Of a stretch of DNA of 64,000 nucleotides, positions 23,928-61,139 are shown in pieces. The notes under the pieces were generated by a model, which was not told the DNA's origin, searched no databases, and worked only from the letters and a program-made list of their open reading frames with translations. The DNA comes from Methylophaga nitratireducenticrescens (lineage in GTDB: Bacteria; Pseudomonadota; Gammaproteobacteria; Nitrosococcales; Methylophagaceae), in assembly GCF_000260985.4 (NCBI RefSeq), contig NC_017857.3:2365001-2429000 (forward strand), in the 5' to 3' direction. Each line of letters opens with the position of its first letter. The stretch's first letter is position 1. The translations under genes and the position numbers were made by a program.

Positions 23928-24554
23928 CTAAACCGGTTCAAACAAGCCGGTTTGGGAATTAAAGCAAAATAACTCTCCAGCAGCCAAATCAAAATACCAG
24001 CCGTGTAAGGTCAAACGACCCTCTTCAACACGCTCACGAACGCATTCAAAACTCATCAGGTTTTCCAGGGACACAAGCACTGCACGCTGCTCACAGGCCT
24101 TTAACTGACTGGCTTCATCGTCCTTCATATTTTGACTTTTAACCCAGTCCTTTGCCGGTTGAGCTATTGAAACCCACTGATGGATGAATTTAGAGCTCTG
24201 TTGAGCTTCATCTTGCCATAAAGCACGGATACCACCACAATTCGCGTGCCCCATTACGATAATATTCTCAACCTGCAGATTATCCACTGCAAACTCAAGT
24301 GCTGAACTGGTGCCATGATGCAACCCATCATGTTCACAAGGAGGAACCAGATTGGCGACATTCCTGACGGTAAACAAATCGCCTGGATCACAATCTGTCA
24401 AAATGGCCGGGTCAACACGAGAGTCAGAGCAACCAACCATTAAGGTTTTTGCGGGTTGTCCCGTTTTCATACTGGCATAAAGACGCGTGTCCTGACCAAA
24501 ATAATGTTTTTTAAAACGCTGAAAACCTTCAATTAATCTATCTGTATTAGCCAT
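23928..24554 (-). CDS. can: beta-class carbonic anhydrase
   Basis: 208 residues. Interconverts CO2 and bicarbonate. The zinc ligands and catalytic residues of the beta class are visible: Cys and Asp in GCSDSRVDP near residue 42-46, and His and Cys in GHANCGG near 102-105. It is cytoplasmic, with no signal sequence. Four bases separate it from the hydrolase gene upstream, so the two form an operon. Confidence 0.94.
   Translation of the reverse strand: MANTDRLIEGFQRFKKHYFGQDTRLYASMKTGQPAKTLMVGCSDSRVDPAILTDCDPGDLFTVRNVANLVPPCEHDGLHHGTSSALEFAVDNLQVENIIVMGHANCGGIRALWQDEAQQSSKFIHQWVSIAQPAKDWVKSQNMKDDEASQLKACEQRAVLVSLENLMSFECVRERVEEGRLTLHGWYFDLAAGELFCFNSQTGLFEPV
23930..23953. terminator. hairpin at the convergent ends of bamE and the carbonic anhydrase gene
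   Basis: AAACCGG and CCGGTTT flank a 10-base loop. The hairpin overlaps the last codons of the carbonic anhydrase gene on the other strand. There is no clear T tract, so a terminator role is tentative. Confidence 0.4.
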
Positions 24555-24557
24555 TAT

Positions 24558-25199
24558 TTATGCATGTCTCAAAAACGTTAAAAAAGGATTATATTGTTTT
24601 TCATAGGCAAGCGTTGTGACCGGACCATGACCACTATGCATGCGTAAATGCCCGGGCAATTGCATTAACCGTTGTAAACTTTGCTGCATTATAGCCGGAT
24701 TCCCCATTGGTAGATCAGTGCGTCCAACACTACCAAAAAACAATGTGTCACCGACAAAAATATCCTGCTCGTCATAATAACAACCCTGCCCTGGAGTATG
24801 TCCCGGGGTCGATATAAACCTCAGTTTGGTATCCCCCAAGTGAATGTCATCACCATCGTCGACAAAATGATCAATTCGTCCACATGGTCGATTAAATGAT
24901 GGCTGACCAAACCAATCCCCCTGAACCGGCAAAGTCTCAAATAATGGAAGCTCTTTTCGCGGTAAGTAGGTAGGCACATCAAATTGCGATTGTAAGGCAA
25001 CCAAGCCTCCTGCATGGTCCAGATGGCCATGTGTTAACAATATCTTCTGGATGCGGGGTCGAGGATTGATTGACAGTAACTTTTGCACTAATTCATCTGT
25101 TTCGCCGGTATCAATAATAGCTGCATCACCAGTCGTTTCATCCTCAATTAAATAGGTATTCACCTGAAATGCACCAACGGTAAAGCAGGTGATTTTCAT
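24558..25199 (-). CDS. metallo-beta-lactamase-fold hydrolase (glyoxalase II-like)
   Basis: 213 residues. The zinc-binding motif THGHLDHAGG is near residue 55, with further ligands in STPGHTPGQGCYY near 128, GDTLFFGSVGRTD near 145 and HSGHGPVT near 190. It belongs to the short glyoxalase-II-like group (YcbL type), which hydrolyses thioesters. The real substrate is unknown. The ATG at 25199 (MKITCFTVG) was chosen, with GGGAG ten bases upstream. It is upstream of the carbonic anhydrase gene in the same operon. Confidence 0.88.
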   Translation of the reverse strand: MKITCFTVGAFQVNTYLIEDETTGDAAIIDTGETDELVQKLLSINPRPRIQKILLTHGHLDHAGGLVALQSQFDVPTYLPRKELPLFETLPVQGDWFGQPSFNRPCGRIDHFVDDGDDIHLGDTKLRFISTPGHTPGQGCYYDEQDIFVGDTLFFGSVGRTDLPMGNPAIMQQSLQRLMQLPGHLRMHSGHGPVTTLAYEKQYNPFLTFLRHA

Positions 25200-25215
25200 C
25201 CTGTATGATTCTCCC

Positions 25216-25251
25216 AAAAAAAAACAGCTGGTCGGTTAAACCAGCTGTTTT
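25216..25251 (-). terminator. rho-independent terminator after the WYEAN-repeat gene
   Basis: On the minus strand AAAACAGCTGGT pairs with ACCAGCTGTTTT across a short loop and runs into nine T residues. It closes the repeat-protein transcript before the hydrolase/carbonic anhydrase operon. Confidence 0.85.
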
Positions 25252-25272: not shown

Positions 25273-26505
25273 TTATTTATCTTTGTTTTTCTGTGCTTCA
25301 CGCGCTAAACGCATATTGTTTTCAAACCAATCACGTTTAATTTTTTGAGTACGTGCCAGACTGATATTAGCCTCATACCATTTCTTTTTGATATCCGCAT
25401 GTGGATCGGGATGCAGATTCGCTTCATACCATTTTTGATGGCTTTCACGAGCGGCCTGCAAATTGGCTTCATACCATTTTTTATCACTGGCAGTCTGCTC
25501 ATCACTGAATTCATACCAATGTTTATCCGTTGGTGTCTGATCCAGATTGGCTTCATACCACTTGCTATGCTGTTCACGAAATTTTGCCAGATTAGCTTCT
25601 TGAAAGCGTTTTTTCCAGTCAGTATCTCCCGCTTCTTTGAACTCATACCAGTGTTTATCCGTTGGCGTCTTGTCAAGATTCGCCTCATACCAGTGGCGGT
25701 TTGCTCTAACCATTTCTATTGCTGAACGCAAATTGGCTTCATACCATTTCTTCTTGGTATCAAGATGCTTCACCATATTGGCTTCATACCAATGCGTATC
25801 ACGCTGTTGGGCTGGACGCTGATTAGCCTCATACCATTTGGAGTTTTCCCGAGCAACATGGGTATTGTAGGCAAACCAATCGCGTTTGATTTGTTGAGTA
25901 CGTGCCAGACTGATATTAGCCTCATACCATTTCTTTTTGATATCCGCATGTGGATCGGGATGCAGATTCGCTTCATACCATTTTTGATGGCTTTCACGGG
26001 CGGCTTGCAAATTGGCTTCGTACCACTTTTTATCACTTGCTGTTTGTTCATCACTGAACTCATACCAGTGTTTATCCGTTGGCGTTTGATCCAAATTGGC
26101 TTCGTACCATTTGCTATGCTGCTCACGGAATTTTGCCAGATTAGCCTGTTGCCAGCGTTTTTTGAGATCACTGTATTGTGATTCGGCAAATTCATACCAA
26201 TGAGTTTCGGTGGGCGTATTATCCAGATTTGCTTCATACCAATGACGGTTTGCCCGCACTGCAGCAACAGCACTGCGGAGATTCGCTTCATACCACTTTT
26301 TCTTGGTATCAAGATGCTTCACCATATTGGCTTCATACCACGGCCGATCAGAATGTTTAACTGGATTCTGTGCCGCTTTGTACCAAGGCAGTTTTTTCAT
26401 TTTATCTCTCACTGCGTTTGCGGATTGCAATTTAGCTTTAATACTCTCTGTCGTTACGTGATTGCTCTCGTACCACTTTGTTTTAATATCTATTGTGCTA
26501 CTCAT
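25273..26505 (-). CDS. tandem WYEAN-motif repeat protein of unknown function
   Basis: 410 residues built almost entirely from about 25 copies of a six-residue motif, basic-W-Y-E-A-N. Fifteen are exact WYEAN, and variants include WYEFS, WYESN, WYKAA, WQQAN and WFENN. Tryptophans are spaced 14-18 residues apart by charged linkers rich in Lys, Arg, Gln, Asp and Thr. Trp makes up about 6 percent of residues. There is no signal peptide, no membrane helix and no recognised domain, so it is probably cytoplasmic. Residues 56-238 and 239-410 are two copies of one larger unit. The gene has a good ribosome binding site (GAGAGGT) and its own terminator, and both speak for a real product. The family is not one I recognise. 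A multivalent binding scaffold is an inference only. Confidence 0.85.
   Translation of the reverse strand: MSSTIDIKTKWYESNHVTTESIKAKLQSANAVRDKMKKLPWYKAAQNPVKHSDRPWYEANMVKHLDTKKKWYEANLRSAVAAVRANRHWYEANLDNTPTETHWYEFAESQYSDLKKRWQQANLAKFREQHSKWYEANLDQTPTDKHWYEFSDEQTASDKKWYEANLQAARESHQKWYEANLHPDPHADIKKKWYEANISLARTQQIKRDWFAYNTHVARENSKWYEANQRPAQQRDTHWYEANMVKHLDTKKKWYEANLRSAIEMVRANRHWYEANLDKTPTDKHWYEFKEAGDTDWKKRFQEANLAKFREQHSKWYEANLDQTPTDKHWYEFSDEQTASDKKWYEANLQAARESHQKWYEANLHPDPHADIKKKWYEANISLARTQKIKRDWFENNMRLAREAQKNKDK
25276..26340 (-). repeat. 549-bp internal tandem duplication in the WYEAN-repeat gene
   Basis: The segment 25792-26340 is followed directly by a second copy from 25791 down to the end of the gene. 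The order of motif variants and linkers matches one to one (for example MVKHLDTKKKWYEANLRSA and HADIKKKWYEANISLART occur in each). The period is 183 codons. Silent and a few coding differences show the copies have diverged under constraint. Confidence 0.9.
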
Positions 26506-26604
26506 TGTGTTTACCTCTCTGGGTAGTTTTACAATTCGATACTACCCCAGAAGTGAATCCTTCCACAAGTAAAACCGAAACAATGAGACATCCAGAATAC
26601 GTAT

Positions 26605-27021
26605 TTATTCAAAGCAATGTTTTTCTGCCTTTACCCGTTGCAACATCGATATTTTCTGTTCAATCAGCTGAGTGCGTCTGGCTTCTTTTTCATCTATTAG
26701 AGACGAATATCCCAGATAAGCCAACCCAAGCCATCCTTCCACAACCGGAATCGTATCAAAAGCAATTAATGTCGCGGCCAGTTTATTACTGCCATCATCA
26801 TAAAAGCCGGGCTTGTAACTGTAACGATATGGATGAAGCTGATTGATCGCACCATCAATTTCAACGCAGCTATGCTTACGGATTTCATCAGTAATTTCCA
26901 CTACCGGCGGTTCATAATAAATTGGCTCAGTTGGTACGGGGACAGGTGTTAACGCCTGTACTGGTAACACCATAAATCCAAACATCAAACCTAATGACTT
27001 GAGAAAAAATTGATTTTTCAT
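26605..27021 (-). CDS. hypothetical exported protein
   Basis: 138 residues. A signal peptide with a basic start and a hydrophobic core ends at VQA near residue 23, followed by a Pro-rich mature start (LTPVPVPTEP). The mature part has two cysteines (near residues 52 and the C-terminal CFE), a hydrophobic segment near 90-110 and a charged helical C-terminus. No family was recognised. It lies between the Lon-like protease and the WYEAN-repeat gene on the same strand, about 100 bp from the latter. Confidence 0.7.
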   Translation of the reverse strand: MKNQFFLKSLGLMFGFMVLPVQALTPVPVPTEPIYYEPPVVEITDEIRKHSCVEIDGAINQLHPYRYSYKPGFYDDGSNKLAATLIAFDTIPVVEGWLGLAYLGYSSLIDEKEARRTQLIEQKISMLQRVKAEKHCFE

Positions 27022-27093
27022 AGCTGACATACCTATACAATTTTTGCGTGTTTGCCTGTAGAGGTTAACGGCTGGCCTGACCGTAACTATAGC

Positions 27094-47746: not shown

Positions 47747-48118
47747 ATTAAATAATTAGCTCTATCGCCCCGCCCCTCACCAAAAATACATATTTTCTAT
47801 CCACAACATCGATTGCTCATGAATACTGACATCAACTAGCCTGGCAGTTTAAAATGTAATTTGGTGTCAGATGCTGGGATGTGCCCCAAAAGCATCAACG
47901 CACTGCCCGCCCGGCACATCGGGAGTGAGGGCTTCAGAATATTGCTCTTACATATACCTAAAAGTTGTAACAACAAGCTTCTCATTATTTTAATGATGAC
48001 TTCATGCTGCCTATTCGGCAGTAAACCAGTTACCTGAACTCGGAGCTACGAGAAAGCATTTCTAAGCTGCCTGTTCGGCAGTGAACCTGGTCGCGTGGTA
48101 TTTTGACGGGCATGTGAT

Positions 48119-49018
48119 TTTCTAAGCTGCCTGTTCGGCAGTGAACTGTTTAAGTGAGGTGCGTTCGGTGCCGGAACTTTTCTAAGCTGCCTGTTCGGCA
48201 GTGAACGTAGCCGGTGCAGCCAATAGTGTATTCCCGGCTTTCTAAGCTGCCTGTTCGGCAGTGAACAATCGCGCCCATTTTCGGCAAGTCGCTGATTTTT
48301 TCTAAGCTGCCTGTTCGGCAGTGAACAGCCGCGCATCCGGCGAATATTCCAGGCGGTTTTTCTAAGCTGCCTGTTCGGCAGTGAACACATGGTGCTTAAT
48401 TAAATGAGGTGTTATTATTTTCTAAGCTGCCTGTTCGGCAGTGAACTGCCCCATGTATATACATAAAGAATTGCTTCTTTTCTAAGCTGCCTGTTCGGCA
48501 GTGAACAATGACCTTCTTAGATGCTTTACAGCATGCCTTTTCTAAGCTGCCTGTTCGGCAGTGAACGTCCAGCAGCAGGGCAGCCAGAATTTGCTACATT
48601 TCTAAGCTGCCTGTTCGGCAGTGAACAATGACAATGGCAGCGATAAAAGGCCAGATTTTTTCTAAGCTGCCTGTTCGGCAGTGAACAAAACAACCAGCTA
48701 CGTGCTGATGTTGATGCTTTTCTAAGCTGCCTGTTCGGCAGTGAACAAGCTGAGACAGACGTTTTATTGCTTGATGCTTTTCTAAGCTGCCTGTTCGGCA
48801 GTGAACCTATAGCTCACCCTCACGGCTATTCCGATCAGTTTCTAAGCTGCCTGTTCGGCAGTGAACCCAGAAACAGTTGAGGCCTCGGCATCGGTGTATT
48901 TCTAAGCTGCCTGTTCGGCAGTGAACCGGGGGCGGCTCCATTATCCACGCTGGAACTATTTCTAAGCTGCCTGTTCGGCAGTGAACGACGATAACTAACA
49001 GCAGCAAAATACAAGTCA
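48119..49018. repeat. leader-distal copy of a 15-spacer duplication
   Basis: Fifteen consecutive repeat-spacer units recur at 50460-51359 in the same order. All spacers match by eye except the first base at 48147 (T here, C at 50488). Confidence 0.97.
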
Positions 49019-50459
49019 TTTCTAAGCTGCCTGTTCGGCAGTGAACCGGCAGGAACTTCTTACGATAATACATCTTCTTTTCTAAGCTGCCTGTTCGGCA
49101 GTGAACTTTGTTTATTGCATTTAACAGCATACATTGACTTTCTAAGCTGCCTGTTCGGCAGTGAACGCCGAAATCAGTCAGGCGTTTTTAACCGCACATT
49201 TCTAAGCTGCCTGTTCGGCAGTGAACGGATGAGTGAATTAATAAAACCATATGTAAAATTTCTAAGCTGCCTGTTCGGCAGTGAACGAGCCAGCATCTAC
49301 CGTAGCTTACATGCCGTGTTTCTAAGCTGCCTGTTCGGCAGTGAACATCAGAAAGGTTATCGACGGTACACGTGGTGATTTCTAAGCTGCCTGTTCGGCA
49401 GTGAACCCGTTTTTGTGCCAATCAATGACGTTCTGTATTTTCTAAGCTGCCTGTTCGGCAGTGAACCAGGTTTTTGCGTTTGAGTCAGATGGCAGTCATT
49501 TCTAAGCTGCCTGTTCGGCAGTGAACAATGGCAATCCCTAACCGCAAACGGCACAAGTTTTCTAAGCTGCCTGTTCGGCAGTGAACTTTAAAAGCGACCA
49601 TTTAGGCGTTGCTGATTTTTTCTAAGCTGCCTGTTCGGCAGTGAACCAAAAAGCGATAGACCGCAGAAGCGACTATCATTTCTAAGCTGCCTGTTCGGCA
49701 GTGAACTACCTGAGACCCTGCCACCCCTGAAAATGTCATTTCTAAGCTGCCTGTTCGGCAGTGAACCGAGTAAAACTGTGATTAAAAAAACGGTGATTTT
49801 TCTAAGCTGCCTGTTCGGCAGTGAACTATCAGGAATTTTTCTGTTAATTAAATGAATATTTCTAAGCTGCCTGTTCGGCAGTGAACTCAGTGGAAAAGCG
49901 GGATTCTGATATAGCTTATTTCTAAGCTGCCTGTTCGGCAGTGAACAACGACATAAGCGCGCCACAAGCATCGAGCATTTTCTAAGCTGCCTGTTCGGCA
50001 GTGAACATCATCTTTGCAGACGGCAAAGTACAATGCTCTTTCTAAGCTGCCTGTTCGGCAGTGAACAGATAAAGCAATTTTTTGAGGGGATGATAAATTT
50101 TCTAAGCTGCCTGTTCGGCAGTGAACTGGTAAAGGCGAGCTAAAGCCAAAACGCAACTTTTCTAAGCTGCCTGTTCGGCAGTGAACGCGCTATCAAGGGT
50201 GCAACATGGCATATCCAATTTCTAAGCTGCCTGTTCGGCAGTGAACAACCACCCTCAGCAGATAGCACAACTGGACTTGTTTCTAAGCTGCCTGTTCGGC
50301 AGTGAACGTGGATAGTCGTGAGATGGGTGATGAGCTAACTTTCTAAGCTGCCTGTTCGGCAGTGAACGAAGGATCACCTCTAGGTTGTCAGGATGCATAT
50401 TTCTAAGCTGCCTGTTCGGCAGTGAACTGAAAAGCATTTCTTTGAATACCAACAGTTAT

Positions 50460-51359
50460 TTTCTAAGCTGCCTGTTCGGCAGTGAACCGTTTAAGTGAGG
50501 TGCGTTCGGTGCCGGAACTTTTCTAAGCTGCCTGTTCGGCAGTGAACGTAGCCGGTGCAGCCAATAGTGTATTCCCGGCTTTCTAAGCTGCCTGTTCGGC
50601 AGTGAACAATCGCGCCCATTTTCGGCAAGTCGCTGATTTTTTCTAAGCTGCCTGTTCGGCAGTGAACAGCCGCGCATCCGGCGAATATTCCAGGCGGTTT
50701 TTCTAAGCTGCCTGTTCGGCAGTGAACACATGGTGCTTAATTAAATGAGGTGTTATTATTTTCTAAGCTGCCTGTTCGGCAGTGAACTGCCCCATGTATA
50801 TACATAAAGAATTGCTTCTTTTCTAAGCTGCCTGTTCGGCAGTGAACAATGACCTTCTTAGATGCTTTACAGCATGCCTTTTCTAAGCTGCCTGTTCGGC
50901 AGTGAACGTCCAGCAGCAGGGCAGCCAGAATTTGCTACATTTCTAAGCTGCCTGTTCGGCAGTGAACAATGACAATGGCAGCGATAAAAGGCCAGATTTT
51001 TTCTAAGCTGCCTGTTCGGCAGTGAACAAAACAACCAGCTACGTGCTGATGTTGATGCTTTTCTAAGCTGCCTGTTCGGCAGTGAACAAGCTGAGACAGA
51101 CGTTTTATTGCTTGATGCTTTTCTAAGCTGCCTGTTCGGCAGTGAACCTATAGCTCACCCTCACGGCTATTCCGATCAGTTTCTAAGCTGCCTGTTCGGC
51201 AGTGAACCCAGAAACAGTTGAGGCCTCGGCATCGGTGTATTTCTAAGCTGCCTGTTCGGCAGTGAACCGGGGGCGGCTCCATTATCCACGCTGGAACTAT
51301 TTCTAAGCTGCCTGTTCGGCAGTGAACGACGATAACTAACAGCAGCAAAATACAAGTCA
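50460..51359. repeat. leader-proximal copy of the 15-spacer duplication
   Basis: Offset from the other copy is 2341 bp, that is 39 units plus the one extra base of the 33-nt spacer. Twenty-four unrelated units lie between the copies. Confidence 0.97.
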
Positions 51360-54327
51360 TTTCTAAGCTGCCTGTTCGGCAGTGAACGCTTACGCGGATT
51401 AAAACGCTTAGCTGATGAATTTCTAAGCTGCCTGTTCGGCAGTGAACTAGAACTTATTTCTGACTTGGGTTCTGGTGATTTTCTAAGCTGCCTGTTCGGC
51501 AGTGAACAGAAACTTCACATTCAACAGTAACAGGCCATTTTTCTAAGCTGCCTGTTCGGCAGTGAACGGCGTGCTTCTGTTTCGACGTCAAGAGTGGCTT
51601 TTCTAAGCTGCCTGTTCGGCAGTGAACGAATTGCTTTAACATCGCTGGCCACCTTTTCATTTCTAAGCTGCCTGTTCGGCAGTGAACGTACCCTTCTGTC
51701 TGCTGACTGATATAGTTCATTTCTAAGCTGCCTGTTCGGCAGTGAACCATTAGTTCACCTTTGATAAATTGCGGGGAAATTTCTAAGCTGCCTGTTCGGC
51801 AGTGAACGTGCCTCTTTGGGCGTGCTTTCGTTATAGTTTTTTCTAAGCTGCCTGTTCGGCAGTGAACTTATCAATAATACTTGAAGATGCAGCAAGTAAT
51901 TTCTAAGCTGCCTGTTCGGCAGTGAACAAGGCAACCCCCCATACTGCAATAACTGAAGCTTTCTAAGCTGCCTGTTCGGCAGTGAACACAGGGGGGTCTT
52001 CGGACCCCCCCTTTTTTTTTTTCTAAGCTGCCTGTTCGGCAGTGAACTTTCAGAAGAACCCCATGGGGAAGAGGTGAATTTTCTAAGCTGCCTGTTCGGC
52101 AGTGAACGCAGAGCCGGAAGCGGTCGAAGTGGTCAACATTTTCTAAGCTGCCTGTTCGGCAGTGAACCTTCAAACCCATCAACCAGCAATCCTTTAATAT
52201 TTCTAAGCTGCCTGTTCGGCAGTGAACATCATTTCAACTTGAAGTCCCTAATTATGTCTTTTCTAAGCTGCCTGTTCGGCAGTGAACTCAAGCCGATCTG
52301 GATGCGTTGGCCTTTTATTTTTCTAAGCTGCCTGTTCGGCAGTGAACTGTTGATGCCCATCGTTCAACTGGCAACGGTTTTTCTAAGCTGCCTGTTCGGC
52401 AGTGAACCAAGTGATGCCCATCCTGTAAGTGAAATCGGTTTTCTAAGCTGCCTGTTCGGCAGTGAACGGGTAATAAGCACTTACATTCGATTAGGCGCAT
52501 TTCTAAGCTGCCTGTTCGGCAGTGAACTTTATGACGGACTGTTTTCTTTGCCCTGTTTTTTTCTAAGCTGCCTGTTCGGCAGTGAACTTCCAGCGTTCTT
52601 TGAAACGCCATTTCATTAATTTCTAAGCTGCCTGTTCGGCAGTGAACATATTTTTCGCTGTGTTCTTCTACGCCATAAATTTCTAAGCTGCCTGTTCGGC
52701 AGTGAACAGCACATGAATACATAACCCAATACAAGTTAATTTCTAAGCTGCCTGTTCGGCAGTGAACGCCAACTTGCAGCGGGCGGTTTAACGCGCTCAT
52801 TTCTAAGCTGCCTGTTCGGCAGTGAACTTTGCAGCACCTTCATCGGCTTGCTGACTGATTTTCTAAGCTGCCTGTTCGGCAGTGAACGTCGGATGAATTG
52901 GCGCGATGTATTAAGCAGTTTTCTAAGCTGCCTGTTCGGCAGTGAACGAAACCGCTTGCCGGAAAATCATCACCAGCAATTTCTAAGCTGCCTGTTCGGC
53001 AGTGAACAACCGGTCATACAGCCAAAGTCGTTCACTCATTTTCTAAGCTGCCTGTTCGGCAGTGAACCTATCTGTGCGCTGCGGATTGGCAATCGGCGTT
53101 TTCTAAGCTGCCTGTTCGGCAGTGAACGTCTTTCAATCACATCATCAGTCAGCGGTTTATTTCTAAGCTGCCTGTTCGGCAGTGAACGTTTTCTTTGCTC
53201 TGTTTTGGGATTTGGTCAGTTTCTAAGCTGCCTGTTCGGCAGTGAACCCTGTGCTTTCTGTTTCTCGTGCTGCTGGTATTTTCTAAGCTGCCTGTTCGGC
53301 AGTGAACGCTTGCGGGGATTAAAACGCTTAGCTGAAGAATTTCTAAGCTGCCTGTTCGGCAGTGAACTCATGATGAACCTCTGAAAAAGTTTTAGGAAAT
53401 TTCTAAGCTGCCTGTTCGGCAGTGAACACATGGCGCTTAATTAAATGAGGTGTTCTTATTTTCTAAGCTGCCTGTTCGGCAGTGAACATGGTCAATGCGT
53501 GAACGAATGGTTTCATGGTTTTCTAAGCTGCCTGTTCGGCAGTGAACACCTGTTATTCCTGATTCTACTATCACTGATGTTTCTAAGCTGCCTGTTCGGC
53601 AGTGAACACTCTAATCAAAACCGTTTAACTGTTGCTGGTTTTCTAAGCTGCCTGTTCGGCAGTGAACGCGGCTATGACGCAGCCCCATTCATTGAGTCTT
53701 TTCTAAGCTGCCTGTTCGGCAGTGAACACTTGGTACACCGATAACCATAAAGGCTGGCATTTCTAAGCTGCCTGTTCGGCAGTGAACCAGCAATTGAGAC
53801 TGGCGCCTCTTGACCGTCTTTTCTAAGCTGCCTGTTCGGCAGTGAACCCGTAAGTGTCGCGACCTCATCAAGTCAGACTTTTCTAAGCTGCCTGTTCGGC
53901 AGTGAACTCAACCACCGCGACCGCTATTGATCTAGCTAATTTCTAAGCTGCCTGTTCGGCAGTGAACACGACTATGACCCAAATGCCTATGCCGGATATT
54001 TTCTAAGCTGCCTGTTCGGCAGTGAACATCGCACAGCCTCACCACTAGAAAGGTGGAAATTTCTAAGCTGCCTGTTCGGCAGTGAACGATAGCTATGGAC
54101 GCGCTCAAAACAAGATATGTTTCTAAGCTGCCTGTTCGGCAGTGAACAAGTTATGGCCGAACACGGGCAGAGTGATAAATTTCTAAGCTGCCTGTTCGGC
54201 AGTGAACGCTGTGGTTATGGCGGCTACCAAGATTTGTGATTTCTAAGCTGCCTGTTCGGCAGTGAACTGGGTTAGGATTGAAATGCCTACGGGCTTAATT
54301 TTCTAAGCTGCCTGTTCGGCAGTGAAC

Positions 54328-54608
54328 TGAAGTTTAACGCAAAAAAAATAAGTTACAACAATCATTTACTCTCATTCTTCAGGTTTTATGAATGATAAAA
54401 CGATTACATGTAACTTATTAATAATTAAATGTTTTTTTAAAGAACTAAAAAGAATGGTTAAATTTTGATAAAACCTATTTAGAATCTGACTGTAGCGGTC
54501 CACTGATGCCGGACACCATTTTAAAGCCATCGAATTCGATGACTTTAAATCCAAGACTTTAGAAATTTGCAGTTTGCTTTTCGGCATTCTCCTTACTTAG
54601 AATCACTT
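54328..54608 (-). promoter_or_regulatory. CRISPR leader
   Basis: AT-rich 281-bp stretch between the newest repeat and cas6f. It holds an 11-bp inverted repeat, AATAAGTTACA (54347-54357) and TGTAACTTATT (54409-54419), and a smaller one, TTTTAT-GAATG-ATAAAA. In I-F systems this region carries the array promoter and the site for integration, often with IHF binding. No clear promoter boxes were fixed. A 71-codon frame here lacks support and was not called. Confidence 0.8.
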
Positions 54609-55160
54609 TCAGAACCAAGGAACAGTTGCACTTTTCGAAAGCCCAAAGCAGTCAAACTGGCCGTGCGTAGCCTCACCTTTAAGTTCACCGAATTCGATAT
54701 AGCGTCGATGCTTTTGTCCGGTTGAACTGCTCACCAACTCTAAATATGGGTTATCTAACCCTCGGGCAAACATTTTAGCTTTGTATTGTTGGATTTCATC
54801 TTCAGAGATACTGCCACGCTTCAAAAGTCTCCTTAGTTTGGATTGACTCATTGTGGTTTGTTTACGACTTACAGTACAAAATTTAGCACTGTCCGGCACT
54901 GGCTGAATCCCACTGATATTGCAGTATCCACTCATTCCACCAATCCAGTTTTGATCCTGCAAAACACGCAATGTTTTCTCATCACCATGGATTCGTAAAA
55001 TATTTCCCAAGGTAATATTGTGGTTTGGAAAGCTGACACCTATATTTTTTGCACGAAGATCAAAAATAGCTTTGTGGAGTTTTGTGTAAACCGTGTTCAA
55101 TAGAACGTTAATACGCATTTCAGCATTCGGATTTATAAGTACATCGATGTAAAAATTCAT
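54609..55160 (-). CDS. cas6f: Cas6f (Csy4) crRNA-processing endoribonuclease
   Basis: 183 residues. It cuts the pre-crRNA at the base of the repeat hairpin and stays on the 3' end of the crRNA. The catalytic His is in TKLHKAI at residue 29, as in Pseudomonas Csy4. The Ser partner lies in SSTGQKHR near 149. The Arg-rich RNA-groove helix is SKLRRLLKR near 107-116, and the C-terminus ends in the family pattern GLSKSATVPWF. It is the last gene of the cas operon, next to the leader. Confidence 0.96.
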   Translation of the reverse strand: MNFYIDVLINPNAEMRINVLLNTVYTKLHKAIFDLRAKNIGVSFPNHNITLGNILRIHGDEKTLRVLQDQNWIGGMSGYCNISGIQPVPDSAKFCTVSRKQTTMSQSKLRRLLKRGSISEDEIQQYKAKMFARGLDNPYLELVSSSTGQKHRRYIEFGELKGEATHGQFDCFGLSKSATVPWF

Positions 55161-55171
55161 AAGTACTCTCC

Positions 55172-56191
55172 TTACCGAACGTCAATATGGGAAACATAAG
55201 CTAAGCCTTTTTTCCCAAGATAAAATGCCGAGACTCCGGCATTATCAATCATTGTTTTCAATTCAATCGCCTTATCCAAGTCAATGTCTAAATGGATTGA
55301 TAGTTGTCCAGATGCTTTAGTCAGAAAATGCTTTACTTTTCCTTCGCCTTTTACAAACTCCTCACGTACATAAGGATTTCCATAAATTAGTTTTTTTGCA
55401 CCTGTTGTGTATTTATCCATAAAGTCTTTAGGCGTGAAGCCGTTGTTAGAAATGCCGCTAATCCCTCCCATTTTTGATTTGGCATTTATCATATTAAATC
55501 CTCGTTCTTCTAACCGTTGTAACTGAAGATATAAAGCCGAGCAATACATGCTTAGAAGAAGGATTTGTCCTTTTTGATTTATTGGCTTGTATTTCTCAAA
55601 ACGGTTCACCAAAAATTCAGATGCCGCATTTGCTTTATTTAAATTTTCTAATGGTTTCAGTTTTTTTATATATTCAAGCCGACTCATAATACTGAGAGGG
55701 TCGAGCGAAATATCAGTTTTTGACAGCTTATCTTCTAGAATAAAATCGAAAAGCGACTCGGTGTCTAACCCTAATACCCCCCAAAATAAAGGAGAGTAAT
55801 CTGATTGAAAAATTGGATCATTTATACGAATCATTCCTGTAAATGCGTTTTGATCAGTACTGCCCTTCATATTACGGATATAAGCTGTTTCTTGATTTAT
55901 AACTATTGGGTTATCTTCAAAGGTAATGGCACTTTCAATATTTGAGAAGTAATGCGGTATGTCCTCAAAACTGCTCCGAGATTGATAGAGTTTTCGCTGT
56001 TCGCCTATTAATCTATTCAATACACCCAACACAGTATCTTTCGTAACATGTTTTGGCATGAAATTTTCTACTTTTTGTAACTCTGTCATCGAAGCGACGA
56101 AATTTCGACCTTTTTTTGGCAGCGGTTCATTATTACTGCCATCTAAAAAAGAATTTCGCCACGATGATTCATAATCAATAATAATTTTCAT
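55172..56191 (-). CDS. cas5fv: Cas5fv, crRNA 5'-handle and PAM-sensing subunit of type I-F2
   Basis: 339 residues. The sequence begins MKIIIDYESSWRNSFLDGSN and ends AFYLGKKGLAYVSHIDVR, with GGISGISNNGFTPKDFMD near 245, matching the Cas5fv (Csy2-variant) of Shewanella putrefaciens CN-32 as I recall it. In that minimal complex Cas5fv carries an extra helical domain that recognises the PAM and replaces the missing large subunit Cas8f. Eleven bases separate it from cas6f. Confidence 0.9.
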   Translation of the reverse strand: MKIIIDYESSWRNSFLDGSNNEPLPKKGRNFVASMTELQKVENFMPKHVTKDTVLGVLNRLIGEQRKLYQSRSSFEDIPHYFSNIESAITFEDNPIVINQETAYIRNMKGSTDQNAFTGMIRINDPIFQSDYSPLFWGVLGLDTESLFDFILEDKLSKTDISLDPLSIMSRLEYIKKLKPLENLNKANAASEFLVNRFEKYKPINQKGQILLLSMYCSALYLQLQRLEERGFNMINAKSKMGGISGISNNGFTPKDFMDKYTTGAKKLIYGNPYVREEFVKGEGKVKHFLTKASGQLSIHLDIDLDKAIELKTMIDNAGVSAFYLGKKGLAYVSHIDVR

Positions 56192-56206
56192 CCCTGCGCG
56201 CCCCTT

Positions 56207-57151
56207 TTACTGAGCTTCGAAGTAAGTCGCAAAATGCTCTCTAGGGTGTGACATAATCTGATCTGGCGTACGTTTAATACGCATCATCTGGTTACTGTCG
56301 TTAAAGTCGACAACAAGTTCGTCAACATACATGTATGCTTTTGCCTGTCGAATTGAGAGATTCCGAAGCATTTCCAACGAAGTATCAATAAGACTTTGCA
56401 CAGCATCTTCATTTAGTAAAATGCCAGCTTCTCCCACTTCAAAAATTGTTCCTTTACGAACATAGTTCGGATGAAAAACTGCTTTGGGATTAAGTTCAAG
56501 ATTCAGGCTTTTAATGAAATCTTCTACAGCTTTCGCAACATTCTCCCCCTGATTGTCTTTAATCACCATCGCGGCACGATCAAACTTGTTGTCGAGAGAA
56601 ATAAACTGTAGTTGTTCAATACTAATTGAGCCGTAGGAAATATATTTAGTATCACCGAAGGTGGTTTTAGAGAAAAAAGATGAATTATCTCTTTCTCCTG
56701 CCTGTCCGAACTGCTCAAAATTACCATTACCTAACTGATCAACAAAGTCTTCCAAAAGCAGTGGACTAGTTCGTTTGCACTGGCTCGATGGCACAACATA
56801 ACCACGAACCATTCCAGTTATTGAAGCCAATACTTTTTCAAGATTCTTTTCTGCTGCGAAGTGCAAATCAAATGCCTGCTCACGAAACAAATGATGACGA
56901 ATACAATTCTGACTTATATAAAGTGGAGTTTCTTTAAAGTTAATATCAGTCGCTTCCTTTTTATATTTATACCCAGTCTCGTCTTTTATTTTTCCTGTAA
57001 GATTTGTATATCCTCTAAGTTTTGGCAGGGTATGGTTGTCGACGGTACGGCCTTCATTACTAAGTGTTGTTGGTCCATTCCAATTCACTACCCCATGACC
57101 CAATGCTGTTATCTTAAAATCAACACTTTTGATACCTGTAATTTTTTCCAT
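56207..57151 (-). CDS. cas7fv: Cas7fv, backbone subunit of the type I-F2 Cascade
   Basis: 314 residues. It forms the filament that holds the crRNA spacer. The start is the ATG giving [14 protein letters not shown], because AAGGAGAG lies just upstream. An earlier in-frame ATG touches the cas2-3 stop and lacks a site. Recognisable parts are [13 protein letters not shown] near 82 and [20 protein letters not shown] near 118. It is shorter than and diverged from ordinary Csy3. Fifteen bases separate it from cas5fv, which leaves no room for cas8f. Confidence 0.9.
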
Positions 57152-57175
57152 AACTCTCTCCTTTTTGAATAACAA

Positions 57176-60151
57176 CTATTCAGCTGTTTGTGATTTAAGC
57201 TTGTTTTTAAGTTTTGCAATCGACATCGCACCAACGGGTTGTCTATTGCTTATGACGTAATACACGGCTTGAGGGTGAGGATTACTATTCACTAAACTGA
57301 GGTCTTTCGGTGTATAACTAAGGTAAATTGGACTTTCTGGTGAACGAGCCTCTTTAATCAACTCCCATTCGTTTCGTGCTTTTTTGTATCCCTCATCAGA
57401 TTTGATATTGTGATGTTTCTTCTGCATGAACTGAACTAGATTCGCATCATCATTGCCATATCCACGCATTGTTTCGATTGATTCTGTCAGTGCCGATGGT
57501 GGTTGATTTGGATTAAAGGTTTCACTGGAAGCATAATTTTCAGAAAAAAATAGTTGCTGATCTTCCAACACCTCACAAACTGCCATTTGCACAAAACGAT
57601 TATCGCCACGAAGTGAGTTAGCTGATATTTTGATGATGCCTTGTTTTAATTTAGACTTTGGCGGCACCGAAATCGGGTCAATAATTTTCTTGTTAATAAG
57701 TTCGACACTTTTTTTCAATGAAAGCAGAAAGTCCTGCTTAAGCCATTCTTGTGCCTGCTTGTCGGTATAAAAAGATCGATAAATCTCGTAAAGCTGATTA
57801 ATAGTGACTGTTTTCTGAGTCTCTAATCGTTCTTTCAAAAAACTCAACCAAGCTTTGGTACTATTCCATACACACATCTGATTCAAAAATCTTGCACAAC
57901 TGCTAGTCTGTTTACCATTTATTTCTAGACTCTTTGGTATCACAGTAATATATGGATTGACCCCTTCATTCTCACCAAAACGGTCGAGACGCCCTAAGCG
58001 CTGGAGCCAGTTTTCAGCATTGGTGATTTCAGTCAACATTCGGTCACAGGTGATATTCAGAGATGCCTGAACTATTGGCCCACTTCGTAGAACTTCGTAT
58101 CGCTGACTCCCGTTACGTTTGAAGCTATTGAACACCGCATCGAACCAATAGGCCTTGTCTTGTTTTGTATATTTAGAATGCAGCAAAACACTATTTTCAA
58201 TTCCATGATGCTGCAAATAGCCCAATTGTGCATCCAATGCAGTATTTGTGATAACGAAAGTCTTCCCCTGCTGGGATTCCCTGATTAAAGGGCTGAGTTC
58301 TTCTTTTTCATCATAGTTTATAAAGTCAATCTGATATCTTGAGGCGTTAAAGCTATCGATTGTGATGATATCTTCTTTTTGAATACCTAAAAATTGGGTC
58401 AGATAGAAATAATTTGGGGTTGCAGACACTAACAACGTATTGGCGTGTTCACCCTGCTGTTTTTTGGCCTCAATAAGTTCTGCAAACAATAGGTTAAAAG
58501 CAGGCATATTGACCAATTCATGAAACTCGTCAAACACTACATGTGCATTCATAAATTGGATAAATGTGTCTACATGGCTGTGAGATCGAATTGAGTTAAC
58601 CACTTGGTCAATTGTGGTTATCACAATATCCCCACTGAAGTAATCCGACTCATCGGTATCGGGAACATCTTCAAAGCTACGGCCATTACCTAAGATTTTT
58701 TTGTATTCCCCTGTAAATATCTCAATTTGTCCATCAGGTAAATATTCTTCTGCCGTCAAGTCATGCAATAAGCCAAGGCAAACCTGTACTCGTGGGCATA
58801 CCCATATAATTTTTTCAGCATCTGTTTTCAATGCCCATTCAAGGGCTATTTTTGTTTTACCACACCCGGCAGGCCCTTGAAGCACCCCAATATTTGCAGA
58901 GTTATTGAGTTTAGCTATTTTCTTTAAATCAGCCAGAGATTTTGCTGCATGACTTTGAGCTTCGTTACGTTGACTATTTGGATAGGCACTTATAAAGCCA
59001 TATAAACACTGTTCAATTCCTTCTTTTAGTAATGATTTATCTTGTGTAATTTCTATATTGTTAAGCTCGGCCAAAGAACCTTCAGCAAGATATTCTTCCA
59101 AGTCTTCAGAAGAACGACTTGAGACCAATCGATCAGCACTAATTACTGCTGATCTGACAAGATTATTCAATGCGTTTTCACGCACATTACTCTGAAATTC
59201 GGGTATATCATCCGCCCATCCATCATATTTTTTGTAATCAGGACACGTTTTTGACGTCAGGCTAAATGAATTATTTAAGCCAACAAGGAAATTTTCTACT
59301 TCAAACTTTGAAGCCATATAGCCAACATCTTTAATAACGGCTAGGACTTTATTGAATACATCCTCAAACTTGTCTTTTGCCAATGACTTTTTAAACACTG
59401 CATAGATGGCTTCTGGATTAGTAAATTTGTCCTCCTTTCTAAATGGTTTGGTGTGATGCCAATAGATGGCATGTGCAATCTGTTTGCGCTGTCCATCATT
59501 TAAGGAACAACCGTCCATCAAAGACTCAGCAAAAATCCATGACAGCTCATGATGTCTTGGATGTTTCTCAAAAGAAAATTTCGCAGGAGAATCAATGTGA
59601 ACACCATCATCGGGAACGAAGTCATCTGGAATTTTCCCGAGCTTTTTATTCACCCAGTTTTGAAACTCTGGATCTATTTTTCCAATGTCATGGAAAATTC
59701 CCGCGATAAAAACCGCTTGCTTGAGGTTTTGGTTATTGATCTGTAAAGCATCCAATATTTGATGAGCAACAAAACCGGCAGCAAAAAGATGCTTGCTTAA
59801 TGCTTGAGCACGGGTATTAGCAAGCAAATCACCAGTTTCTATAGGTAATCTATCCATAATGACTTCCTTCGATGTAAAGTTAACAGGCACTACACCTCGA
59901 TGGTTAAATACATGGGTACGACCCACCACCCAAACCAACTCAGACCTTGACCGACTACGTATCCAATGACAACTGACTGCTGTGTTTTTACTTGCCGTTT
60001 TTCTCAGGAGTTTTCTGACGGCATTGAGTCCTTCTTGTGTAATCACTGTTTGCCAGGTGTTATCACCAATCCGATCAGCAAAGGCGTCCAGTACTCGCCT
60101 GGTTCGAGCTAGCGCCTTCTTTTCACATTGAGAGACAAATGTCACCATCAT
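57176..60151 (-). CDS. cas2-3: Cas2-Cas3 fusion nuclease-helicase
   Basis: 991 residues. The N-terminal Cas2-like part (about 1-95) is joined to an HD nuclease (GIFHDIGKID near 155, KHLF...AHQ near 120) and a superfamily 2 helicase. The helicase has Walker A GPAGCGKT near 428, DEFH box VVFDEFHEL near 540 and SATP near 575, plus a C-terminal domain. It both joins Cas1 in spacer capture and destroys targets. All motifs are intact. Its ATG overlaps the cas1 stop (ATGA). Confidence 0.96.
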   Translation of the reverse strand: MMVTFVSQCEKKALARTRRVLDAFADRIGDNTWQTVITQEGLNAVRKLLRKTASKNTAVSCHWIRSRSRSELVWVVGRTHVFNHRGVVPVNFTSKEVIMDRLPIETGDLLANTRAQALSKHLFAAGFVAHQILDALQINNQNLKQAVFIAGIFHDIGKIDPEFQNWVNKKLGKIPDDFVPDDGVHIDSPAKFSFEKHPRHHELSWIFAESLMDGCSLNDGQRKQIAHAIYWHHTKPFRKEDKFTNPEAIYAVFKKSLAKDKFEDVFNKVLAVIKDVGYMASKFEVENFLVGLNNSFSLTSKTCPDYKKYDGWADDIPEFQSNVRENALNNLVRSAVISADRLVSSRSSEDLEEYLAEGSLAELNNIEITQDKSLLKEGIEQCLYGFISAYPNSQRNEAQSHAAKSLADLKKIAKLNNSANIGVLQGPAGCGKTKIALEWALKTDAEKIIWVCPRVQVCLGLLHDLTAEEYLPDGQIEIFTGEYKKILGNGRSFEDVPDTDESDYFSGDIVITTIDQVVNSIRSHSHVDTFIQFMNAHVVFDEFHELVNMPAFNLLFAELIEAKKQQGEHANTLLVSATPNYFYLTQFLGIQKEDIITIDSFNASRYQIDFINYDEKEELSPLIRESQQGKTFVITNTALDAQLGYLQHHGIENSVLLHSKYTKQDKAYWFDAVFNSFKRNGSQRYEVLRSGPIVQASLNITCDRMLTEITNAENWLQRLGRLDRFGENEGVNPYITVIPKSLEINGKQTSSCARFLNQMCVWNSTKAWLSFLKERLETQKTVTINQLYEIYRSFYTDKQAQEWLKQDFLLSLKKSVELINKKIIDPISVPPKSKLKQGIIKISANSLRGDNRFVQMAVCEVLEDQQLFFSENYASSETFNPNQPPSALTESIETMRGYGNDDANLVQFMQKKHHNIKSDEGYKKARNEWELIKEARSPESPIYLSYTPKDLSLVNSNPHPQAVYYVISNRQPVGAMSIAKLKNKLKSQTAE

Positions 60152-61107
60152 AGTGCTGTTGTCTCCCAGTCTTGCTTGAGCGCGATCTCTTTGACCTGAT
60201 TAAACATAAACTCCAGCGCGTTATGATCTGTAAATGCTTGTAAACACTGCTGGCGAAATTCCTGTTCTGTGCTTTTTTCTTTTGCACAAATAAATGCCCA
60301 CGGCAGAATCAAAGCGTCTTTGACTAAATCCGCCACATCAAATACCAACGCACCTCGCCGTGTTTTGCCATGCATCACCGCAAAGCCATGAGGTATTCCT
60401 AAAACCCAAAGAGTCGTAGCCGCTAATCCGTAGGCCAGGTAATTACCATGATTGAGAAACGTGTTGGCGGTGTCGATTGCTTCGCGTTCACGGGTAAAAT
60501 CACCGTAATTACTGGTTCGAGCAGCAAATTTATAAAGTTGTTTGGTGAGTTCTGCTTCACCTTGCATCAAGCCACTCACCTTCTTAGCCGCTGTCACTTT
60601 TTGTAAACTGCTTTCGAGGGCTCGTTGTAAAAGTGGATCAGCCATATCAAATCCTTCGGCTTTCAGATCGCGATCCTTGCTCCATATCTGCTTTAAAAAC
60701 TTTATCCTTTCTTGCTGGAATTGTTTTGCAGCCTCTAATCGTTTGGCCTCATCAAACCAAAACTGCATCCATCCTTGTATATATTCTGTTGGCCGATATT
60801 CGCTTTGTGGAGTGAGCCACTCTATTTCGTTCGCCATCAACAAAGGCGTACCTCCACCGCCTGAAAAACCGACTAACACGCCTGCTGAGGCAAGCATGCG
60901 CATTGCGGCCTGGGTAATCGAAGTTCCTGTCCCCAAAAGCAAACAAGTCGTATTGGCGATGGGGATATTCCAATACTGGTTCTCGTTTTTTTCTTCTGTG
61001 AGATAAAGCACCCGCCCATCTTTTTGCATGACACGGCATTTTTCGAGGTAATAAATATTTGCCCGTTTTGAATGTAGTATCGCTTTCAGGTCTGTTAATG
61101 CTTCCAT
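60148..61107 (-). CDS. cas1: Cas1 integrase, type I-F
   Basis: 319 residues. Integrates new spacers at the leader end together with the Cas2 part of Cas2-3. The active-site region GIPHGFAVMHGKTRRGALVFDVADLVKDALI near 235-265 holds the metal-binding His and Asp (read in two pieces, GIPHGFAVMHGKTRRG and ALVFDVADLVKDALI). The ATG at 61107 follows AAAGGGTGGTT and is preferred to a GTG two codons earlier. It is the first gene of the cas operon. Confidence 0.95.
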   Translation of the reverse strand: MEALTDLKAILHSKRANIYYLEKCRVMQKDGRVLYLTEEKNENQYWNIPIANTTCLLLGTGTSITQAAMRMLASAGVLVGFSGGGGTPLLMANEIEWLTPQSEYRPTEYIQGWMQFWFDEAKRLEAAKQFQQERIKFLKQIWSKDRDLKAEGFDMADPLLQRALESSLQKVTAAKKVSGLMQGEAELTKQLYKFAARTSNYGDFTREREAIDTANTFLNHGNYLAYGLAATTLWVLGIPHGFAVMHGKTRRGALVFDVADLVKDALILPWAFICAKEKSTEQEFRQQCLQAFTDHNALEFMFNQVKEIALKQDWETTAL

Positions 61108-61139
61108 AACCACCCTTTGAAAACTGGTTTAGCTTTCAT
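61095..61139 (-). CDS. possible 14-residue leader peptide overlapping the cas1 start
   Basis: AAGGGTGAGAGT precedes an ATG that codes for MKAKPVFKGWLWKH and stops at 61095, inside cas1 and in another frame. The ribosome binding site is better than that of cas1. Its ribosomes would end 10 bases past the cas1 ATG, so coupling or attenuation is possible. It may be chance. Confidence 0.4.
   Translation of the reverse strand: MKAKPVFKGWLWKH

Follow-up and report, generated by a model that had tools for sequence, protein, structure and literature searches.

The described systems closest in proposed mode of working are PYCO1, the N-terminal repeats of CsoS2, and GvpC. PYCO1 is a diatom Rubisco linker in which the Trp of the Lys-Trp motif is essential. 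Like the protein considered here, it repeats a short Lys-Trp motif; it is also multivalent and helical when bound (PMC10288592), as we propose for our protein. PYCO1 is described there as intrinsically disordered, its prion-like domains and its client being known, whereas the present array has conserved spacing and linkers. The CsoS2 repeats are conserved and belong to a largely disordered bacterial scaffold that binds its client multivalently, as we propose below for our protein, but they are four in number, use R..RR..GK-type motifs, and serve the carboxysome (PMC12918739). GvpC is an all-helical tandem-repeat protein whose one conserved face docks on a lattice, again as in our proposal; it differs in its 33-residue repeats, its Leu/Phe/Arg contacts, and its gas-vesicle partner (PMC9994262). 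Pfam gave no GvpC row for 17 members of the family described here (E 0.1), and the motif spacing in the family is mostly 14–19 residues. The likeness to PYCO1 and CsoS2 would lie in the mode of working.

The window analysed is a stretch of 64,000 nucleotides from Methylophaga nitratireducenticrescens, and it encodes a protein in which the motif WYEAN recurs (the WYEAN protein). A literature search for the motif returned no relevant paper, as judged by title. The available portions of PMC6548844, PMC11526790, and PMC5918138 make no mention of the protein; the last of these, from a search for Methylophaga and tandem repeats, treats other repeats in its available portion. The nuclease-repeat string gave nothing in the literature, and HNH with a 15-residue repeat gave nothing related, as judged from the listing. 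Our preferred reading, held tentatively and at somewhat less than even confidence, is that the WYEAN protein is an abundant cytosolic, helix-forming, multivalent docking scaffold derived from a nuclease-free, lineage-specific repeat expansion.

The WYEAN gene and its neighbourhood

The gene lies at 25273..26505 on the minus strand and encodes 410 residues from an ATG start. A sequence-only reading had described about 25 tandem motifs of the form basic-W-Y-E-A-N, and the count holds. The protein has 25 Trp and 15 exact WYEAN motifs, compared with a mean of 0.0008 in 20,000 shuffles of the same composition; the remaining motifs are variants (WYEF, WQQAN, WFAYN, WFENN, and others). The residue preceding the Trp is mostly K or H and sometimes R, but it may also be P or D, so the label 'basic' is right only for most motifs. 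The spacing, given as 14–18 residues, applies to 21 of 24 W-to-W intervals (14, 15, 17, or 18); single intervals of 11, 19, and 30 depart from it. An internal duplication had been overlooked. Super-repeat copy 1 (25837..26385, minus strand, residues 41–223) and copy 2 (25288..25836, minus strand, residues 224–406) are each 183 residues long, with borders set by eye. At an offset of 183 they are 68% identical, and their W register agrees at 11/13 positions. The protein has no Cys, one Gly, and a pI of 9.15, and the genome (a single contig of 3.135 Mb) carries one copy of the gene.

No hydrophobic N-terminus was visible in the sequence, in agreement with the earlier view that an export signal is lacking. 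The statement that no known domain is present was also upheld, since Pfam, NCBIfam, and PDB gave no credible match. The window protein showed four weak Pfam rows, each under its cut-off. Scans of 17 WYEAN members at E 0.1 against Pfam, NCBIfam, and PHROG gave scattered rows to unrelated or unnamed families, with best E-values of 1.8e-4, 1.6e-4, and 1.2e-4, respectively; cut-offs were shown for the first member only, which stayed under them. In a PDB profile search the best match was a Sel1 repeat protein (E 0.061), and no TPR or Sel1 rows appeared for the 17 members in Pfam (E 0.1).

The ribosome-binding site and terminator of the sequence-only reading were both located. The Shine-Dalgarno-like site AGAGAGGT is seen by eye at 26513..26520 (minus strand), and a hairpin search placed an intrinsic terminator with a 13-pair stem and a T-run at 25221..25251 (minus strand). 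An Rfam ncr1015 match over the terminator was rejected, as its 31.3 bits fell below the gathering score of 60. Directly 5′ of the gene, a conserved promoter-like element, TTGT-N19-GTAGTATC, occupies 26538..26568 (minus strand). When the upstream region in the window was aligned with those of 15 named loci (out of 22), the 16 regions shared TTG(T)-N18/19-GTA(G/C)TATC, in which TTG, GTA, and TAT are invariant, with small departures in L042, L044, and L048. A sigma-70 consensus scan did not call this element and found 2 sites versus 4.8 expected by shuffle. Used as a regulon probe in four genomes, the element gave 4 matches versus 5 for the reversed-pattern control, and its own genome held one match besides the WYEAN gene. 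The gene appears, from these upstream sequences, to have its own promoter.

The codon adaptation index (CAI) of the gene, 0.709, ranks second among 46 window ORFs, behind nucleoside diphosphate kinase, and equals the mean of the ribosomal region (0.707, 30 ORFs). This ribosomal-like codon usage suggests that the WYEAN protein is probably abundant. Frames starting at 48000–54000 were left out of the calculation, as they fall in a CRISPR array. This array (48059–54327) gave 105 Rfam direct-repeat matches, mostly at 60-base spacing, and lies beside a type I-F variant cas set (Csy4, Cas5fv, Cas3 with a Cas2 domain, and Cas1), array and cas genes together spanning 48059–61113 of the window.

The gene order Coq7-PilZ-LonB-EXP-WYEAN-MBL-CA-BamE-Fur-RecN is old, and the WYEAN gene has the same location in all 22 named loci, which comprise isolates and MAGs of Methylophaga together with MAGs whose titles give Piscirickettsiaceae or Gammaproteobacteria. 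The neighbours were correctly described by the sequence-only reading as a metabolic hydrolase, a carbonic anhydrase, and an exported protein, but their use as functional clues is not supported. The MBL-fold (glyoxalase II-like) hydrolase (24558..25217, minus strand) adjoins 14 and the beta-carbonic anhydrase (CA; 23928..24554, minus strand) is near 17 of the 20 homologues with downstream sequence (tblastn 1e-6), and the WYEAN gene has its own promoter-like element and terminator. An operon with either was rejected, because both are missing beside several homologues. On the upstream side, 21 of the 22 named loci gave a match to EXP and 15 a match to LonB (tblastn 1e-6).

EXP (26605..27030, minus strand) is a companion gene encoding 141 residues. 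Its product carries an LHPYRYxYK motif and gave no match in Pfam or NCBIfam. EXP occurs in 31/58 relatives and the WYEAN gene in 32/58, the sole difference being G010, and all EXP carriers belong to the family of the WYEAN gene. At L035 (1700–2482) the EXP frame is apparently degraded and the WYEAN gene downstream is intact; the L035 WYEAN protein is identical to that of G010. By eye, EXP has a signal-peptide-like start, which together with two conserved Cys places it probably outside the cytoplasm. A direct partnership of EXP with the WYEAN protein is not supported.

Distribution and constraint

Across the order, the WYEAN gene was found in 53/63 genomes: 53/57 in its own family, by inference Methylophagaceae, and 0/6 in the order's other family. 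Homologues with conserved motifs, the lack of which in related genomes would have told against the sequence-only reading, are thus present in most of the family. The hosts are methanol-eating marine bacteria. The family genomes without a match are G003, G024, G025, and G803. In G003 the contig stops within the carbonic anhydrase, short of the position of the WYEAN gene, and in G024, a 1.1-Mb genome, RecN was likewise not found. In G025 (L085), RecN-Fur-BamE is followed by other genes, and the LonB-EXP-WYEAN-MBL-CA block is absent at the locus. Since G025 has the RuMP formaldehyde-fixing enzyme, the WYEAN gene is not needed for RuMP metabolism. A strict tie to RuMP formaldehyde fixation was rejected; HxlA was above the cut-off in 33/58 genomes, including G025.

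The class sample contained the gene in 4/369 genomes, all 4 from the same family. The phylum sample gave 2/398 matches, the genome of the window itself and a false positive. The latter, G416 (E 7.8e-7), belongs to another class and was rejected as a distant relative, since its translation reads as a pentapeptide-repeat protein. Viral contigs gave 40 pattern matches, none confirmed, and no plasmid encoding a WYEAN protein was found. A 7.7-kb query of window DNA returned 23 plasmid records, with at most 5% covered among the 5 matches listed. WYEAN-coding DNA occurs, as exact matches, 145 times in 11 genomes and always inside the WYEAN gene, so the exact motif is in no other protein of those genomes.

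The codons of the W..N motif are under tighter constraint than the remainder. Motif pN was lower than linker pN in 14/14 homologue pairs, which were hand-picked, non-independent, and in many cases near synonymous saturation. Where defined, dN/dS was 0–0.023 for motifs and 0.020–0.143 for linkers. Synonymous codons differ among motif copies within one gene, which indicates that the copies are old and maintained by selection. The WYEAN ORF is a genuine gene under constraint. An apparent frame break near residue 300 interrupts it in L036 (M. muralis) and L010, leaving a 305-aa frame and a second frame with the remainder.

Resemblance to phage and plasmid repeats

A single phage match (E 7e-4) was obtained, to gene 20 of Chlorobiaceae phage CV-1-33. 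This gene encodes ~11 tandem 15-mers of type WRAENPEKVREYQRK; Pfam showed no nuclease domain, and a PDB search gave no match. Its product matches 39 phage and 13 plasmid records, and an HNH endonuclease or endonuclease VII annotation is found in 11 of the 30 phage matches listed and in 2/13 plasmid records. Among 8 translated repeat proteins, two CxxC pairs precede the repeats in 5 and the end is HNH-like in 5, as judged by eye; Pfam confirmed HNH in 1 of 6 scanned. Similar 15-residue aromatic-xxx-N repeats were seen in plasmid proteins of Microbacterium (L129, 833–2014) and Rossellomorea (L131, 815–1912); neither has an NCBIfam model, and the former has no Pfam model. No Pfam model was found for the repeat [WY]xxxN..E..[RK]E..RK. 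PHROG matches were 14214, 10829, and 17714 (function unknown) and 7091 (HNH endonuclease). The phage protein matched 17714 and 7091, and one WYEAN member each matched these weakly (E 0.074 and 0.071, respectively).

The WYEAN unit and these repeats share a 15-residue period in tandem, K/R before W, N at +4, R at +9, and E at +10. The residues by which the repeat is recognised (aromatic at 0, N at +4, R/K at +9, E at +10, K/R at +14) are all found in the WYEAN unit. The two differ at the positions between: the phage and plasmid repeats most commonly have Arg at +1, Glu at +3, and Pro at +5, compared with Y, A, and L in the WYEAN family. Several of the repeat proteins have two CxxC pairs and an HNH-like end, whereas the window protein has neither Cys nor nuclease, and no Pfam HNH row appeared for it or for the 17 members (E 0.1). 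Because Cys and HNH are absent, the WYEAN protein does not belong to the nuclease family.

Profile comparison supported the likeness. hhalign gave 95% for the WYEAN family against the phage protein, and 94.7% with E 5.7e-8 for 30-mer profiles of WYEAN against phage/nuclease repeats. In a background scan of 339 frames, only 3 of the 5 WYEAN frames reached the list at E ≤10, although these took ranks 1–3. Column permutation reached the observed score in 1/20,000 trials, and in 42/20,000 without the W and N columns; an earlier form, with units picked by W/Y and N, gave 0/20,000, and 9/20,000 without W. Only the in-phase one of 15 rotations of the unit profiles scores. Selection of the nuclease-type 30-mers required an aromatic residue at 0 and N at both +4 and +19, which favours the W and N columns.

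An HMM of the phage/plasmid repeats (38 30-mers from 7 proteins) gave a mean best-domain score of 15.5 bits on 22 WYEAN proteins, with a maximum of 27.8. Control maxima were 11.5 for 220 shuffles keeping W and N, 9.5 for the 106 of 110 plain shuffles listed by hmmsearch, and 2.4 for the 17 of 22 reversed sequences listed. The best-domain score exceeded 11.5, the best listed control, in 17/22 WYEAN proteins. By full-sequence score, 15/22 were above the best control and 7/22 within the control range. In the reciprocal test, a WYEAN HMM on the phage/plasmid repeats gave best domains of at most 6.3 bits (6/7 proteins listed), against W/N-keeping controls of up to 10.5. This reciprocal failure and the 7/22 scores in the control range make the origin of the array uncertain. 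From these comparisons, remote kinship or strong convergence between the two units is probable. The earlier remark that no family of this kind is known therefore stands for curated families and gives way in one respect, in that the unit resembles repeats found in phage and plasmid proteins, of which some are HNH nucleases.

This resemblance is the ground for the main alternative, an unlikely one but the most serious that we considered. Tandem basic aromatic helices could bind DNA or RNA lengthwise, as a nucleoid- or RNA-associated protein that keeps the presumed role of the HNH repeats. The pI of 9.15 speaks for it, and fixed spacing would suit a regular polymer. However, DNA binding by the phage and plasmid repeats is itself only presumed, and the WYEAN units are less basic than most of them. 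Net charge per 15 residues is +0.37 to +1.18 in the 22 WYEAN proteins, compared with 0.00–4.00 in the repeat sets, of which 5/7 exceed 1.5 and lie above the WYEAN values. The helices would also present a Tyr/Ala/Leu face. The low net charge, and Y/A/L in place of R/E/P, favour protein contacts.

An ordered array and its proposed role

Spacing was counted over 450 W-to-W intervals in 22 proteins. The distinct WYEAN proteins numbered 37 after L022 and L039 were dropped for runs of N, and were thinned by eye to 22 for the spacing and HMM counts and to 19 for the comparison of halves. The commonest intervals were 15 (204), 17 (107), 14 (60), 19 (26), and 18 (14), and a spacing of 16 was nearly empty (10/450). 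Across Methylophaga, at 60–70% identity, the series of spacings is unchanged but for a few one-residue shifts or a missing Trp, and it is kept in part across the whole family. All 17 genus members examined have the tandem duplication at an offset of 183–186, and two members of another genus have it at 187. In L013 the W register of the halves agrees within one residue at 11/13 positions (exactly at 6), with a linker identity of 29%. Trp counts in the family range from 15 to 29, and the shorter relatives (228–241 aa, 15 Trp) hold about one module.

The linkers are conserved as well. Aligned linkers are 49–61% identical among three Methylophaga proteins, whereas W-anchored flanks compared between positions within a single protein reach 13–16% identity (183-offset pairs excluded), so that every position carries a conserved linker of its own. 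The rate of gap openings is 0.54 per 100 aligned residues (5 loci), compared with 0.00–1.11 in 8 neighbouring proteins. Flexible linkers of the kind expected in multivalent linker scaffolds such as PYCO1 and CsoS2 would be free in length and sequence, and those of the WYEAN protein are not. The sticker-and-linker pattern proposed by the sequence-only reading is weakened on this account, since linkers are conserved in both respects; what persists of it is a conserved protein with many motifs. The WYEAN protein is an ordered array and not a loose sticker-and-linker chain. Such linkers are odd for a flexible scaffold and would suit a folded repeat equally.

A folded helical-repeat or filament protein, in which the W/Y/N faces pack on one another, inside a chain or across chains, to give a rod, solenoid, or polymer, is accordingly the next alternative, though an improbable one. 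The conserved linkers, a gap rate inside the range of the neighbours, and the clustering of the most conserved residues on one helical side (E at +2 excepted) are consistent with it. Structure prediction is less so. AlphaFold2 gave the window protein helices parted by Pro-containing turns with no tertiary fold (pLDDT 49.6, pTM 0.17), and a 234-aa relative, with 27 alignment rows, likewise reached a pLDDT of 59.0 and a pTM of 0.21. FoldIndex was negative in 8/8 WYEAN proteins, and the unit length is irregular (mostly 14–19) with Pro breaks. With low confidence, the models suggest that the WYEAN motifs form helices; W, Y, A, N, L, and A at +8 would then share one side, with E at +2 off it.

LEA-type proteins are hydrophilic helix-formers that shield other proteins. 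The WYEAN protein is charged, Cys-free, nearly Gly-free, negative in FoldIndex, and ribosomal-like in codon usage, and its hosts are marine, which would suit an abundant stress or osmotic protectant of this type. We regard this reading as highly improbable, as bulk shielding would not demand a W/Y/A/N motif this close to invariant or a spacing this fixed, and the protein is Trp-rich. Phasins and perilipins are amphipathic coats on granule surfaces, and a similar coat on a granule or membrane, which tandem Pro-punctuated helices with Lys, Trp, and Tyr might form, is the least probable reading, given a conserved Asn inside the conserved face and a hydrophobic moment equal to that of shuffles. 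The mean helical moment was 0.225 versus 0.234 in shuffles (n=706), and a longer frame gave 0.214 versus 0.205. These values speak against an amphipathic helix that binds membranes, and that candidate was rejected.

In the docking scaffold that we tentatively prefer, each unit (basic residues, WYEANL, and ..AR) would form a short helix that exposes W, Y, A, N, and in many cases L. About 25 such faces would stand at fixed distances and in fixed order along a chain interrupted by turns that contain Pro, and would bind many copies of one partner, or one another. The array would have arisen, probably in Methylophagaceae, from the 15-residue repeat type of phage and mobile-DNA proteins, without carrying along the zinc ribbon and nuclease domain, and would have been duplicated in the Methylophaga ancestor or earlier. 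We infer the cytosolic place, the scaffolding, the nature of the partner, and the repeat origin. A bolder version, speculative and quite improbable, is a lineage-specific bacterial molecular ruler, similar in principle to nebulin or GvpC. Its ~25 near-identical helical docking sites would be set at fixed distances on an ordered lattice or filament of protein within the methylotroph cytosol, the ruler again having evolved from mobile-element repeats.

If the scaffold reading is true, Methylophaga would contain an abundant scaffold for which no name or family was found, and a repeat of phage or mobile DNA would have been turned into a structural protein of the host. The WYEAN protein would then offer a tractable bacterial system for the multivalent organisation of the cytosol beyond carboxysomes. 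Even with a nucleic acid as its partner, the array would represent a new type of binder, made of tandem helices whose spacing follows a fixed code.
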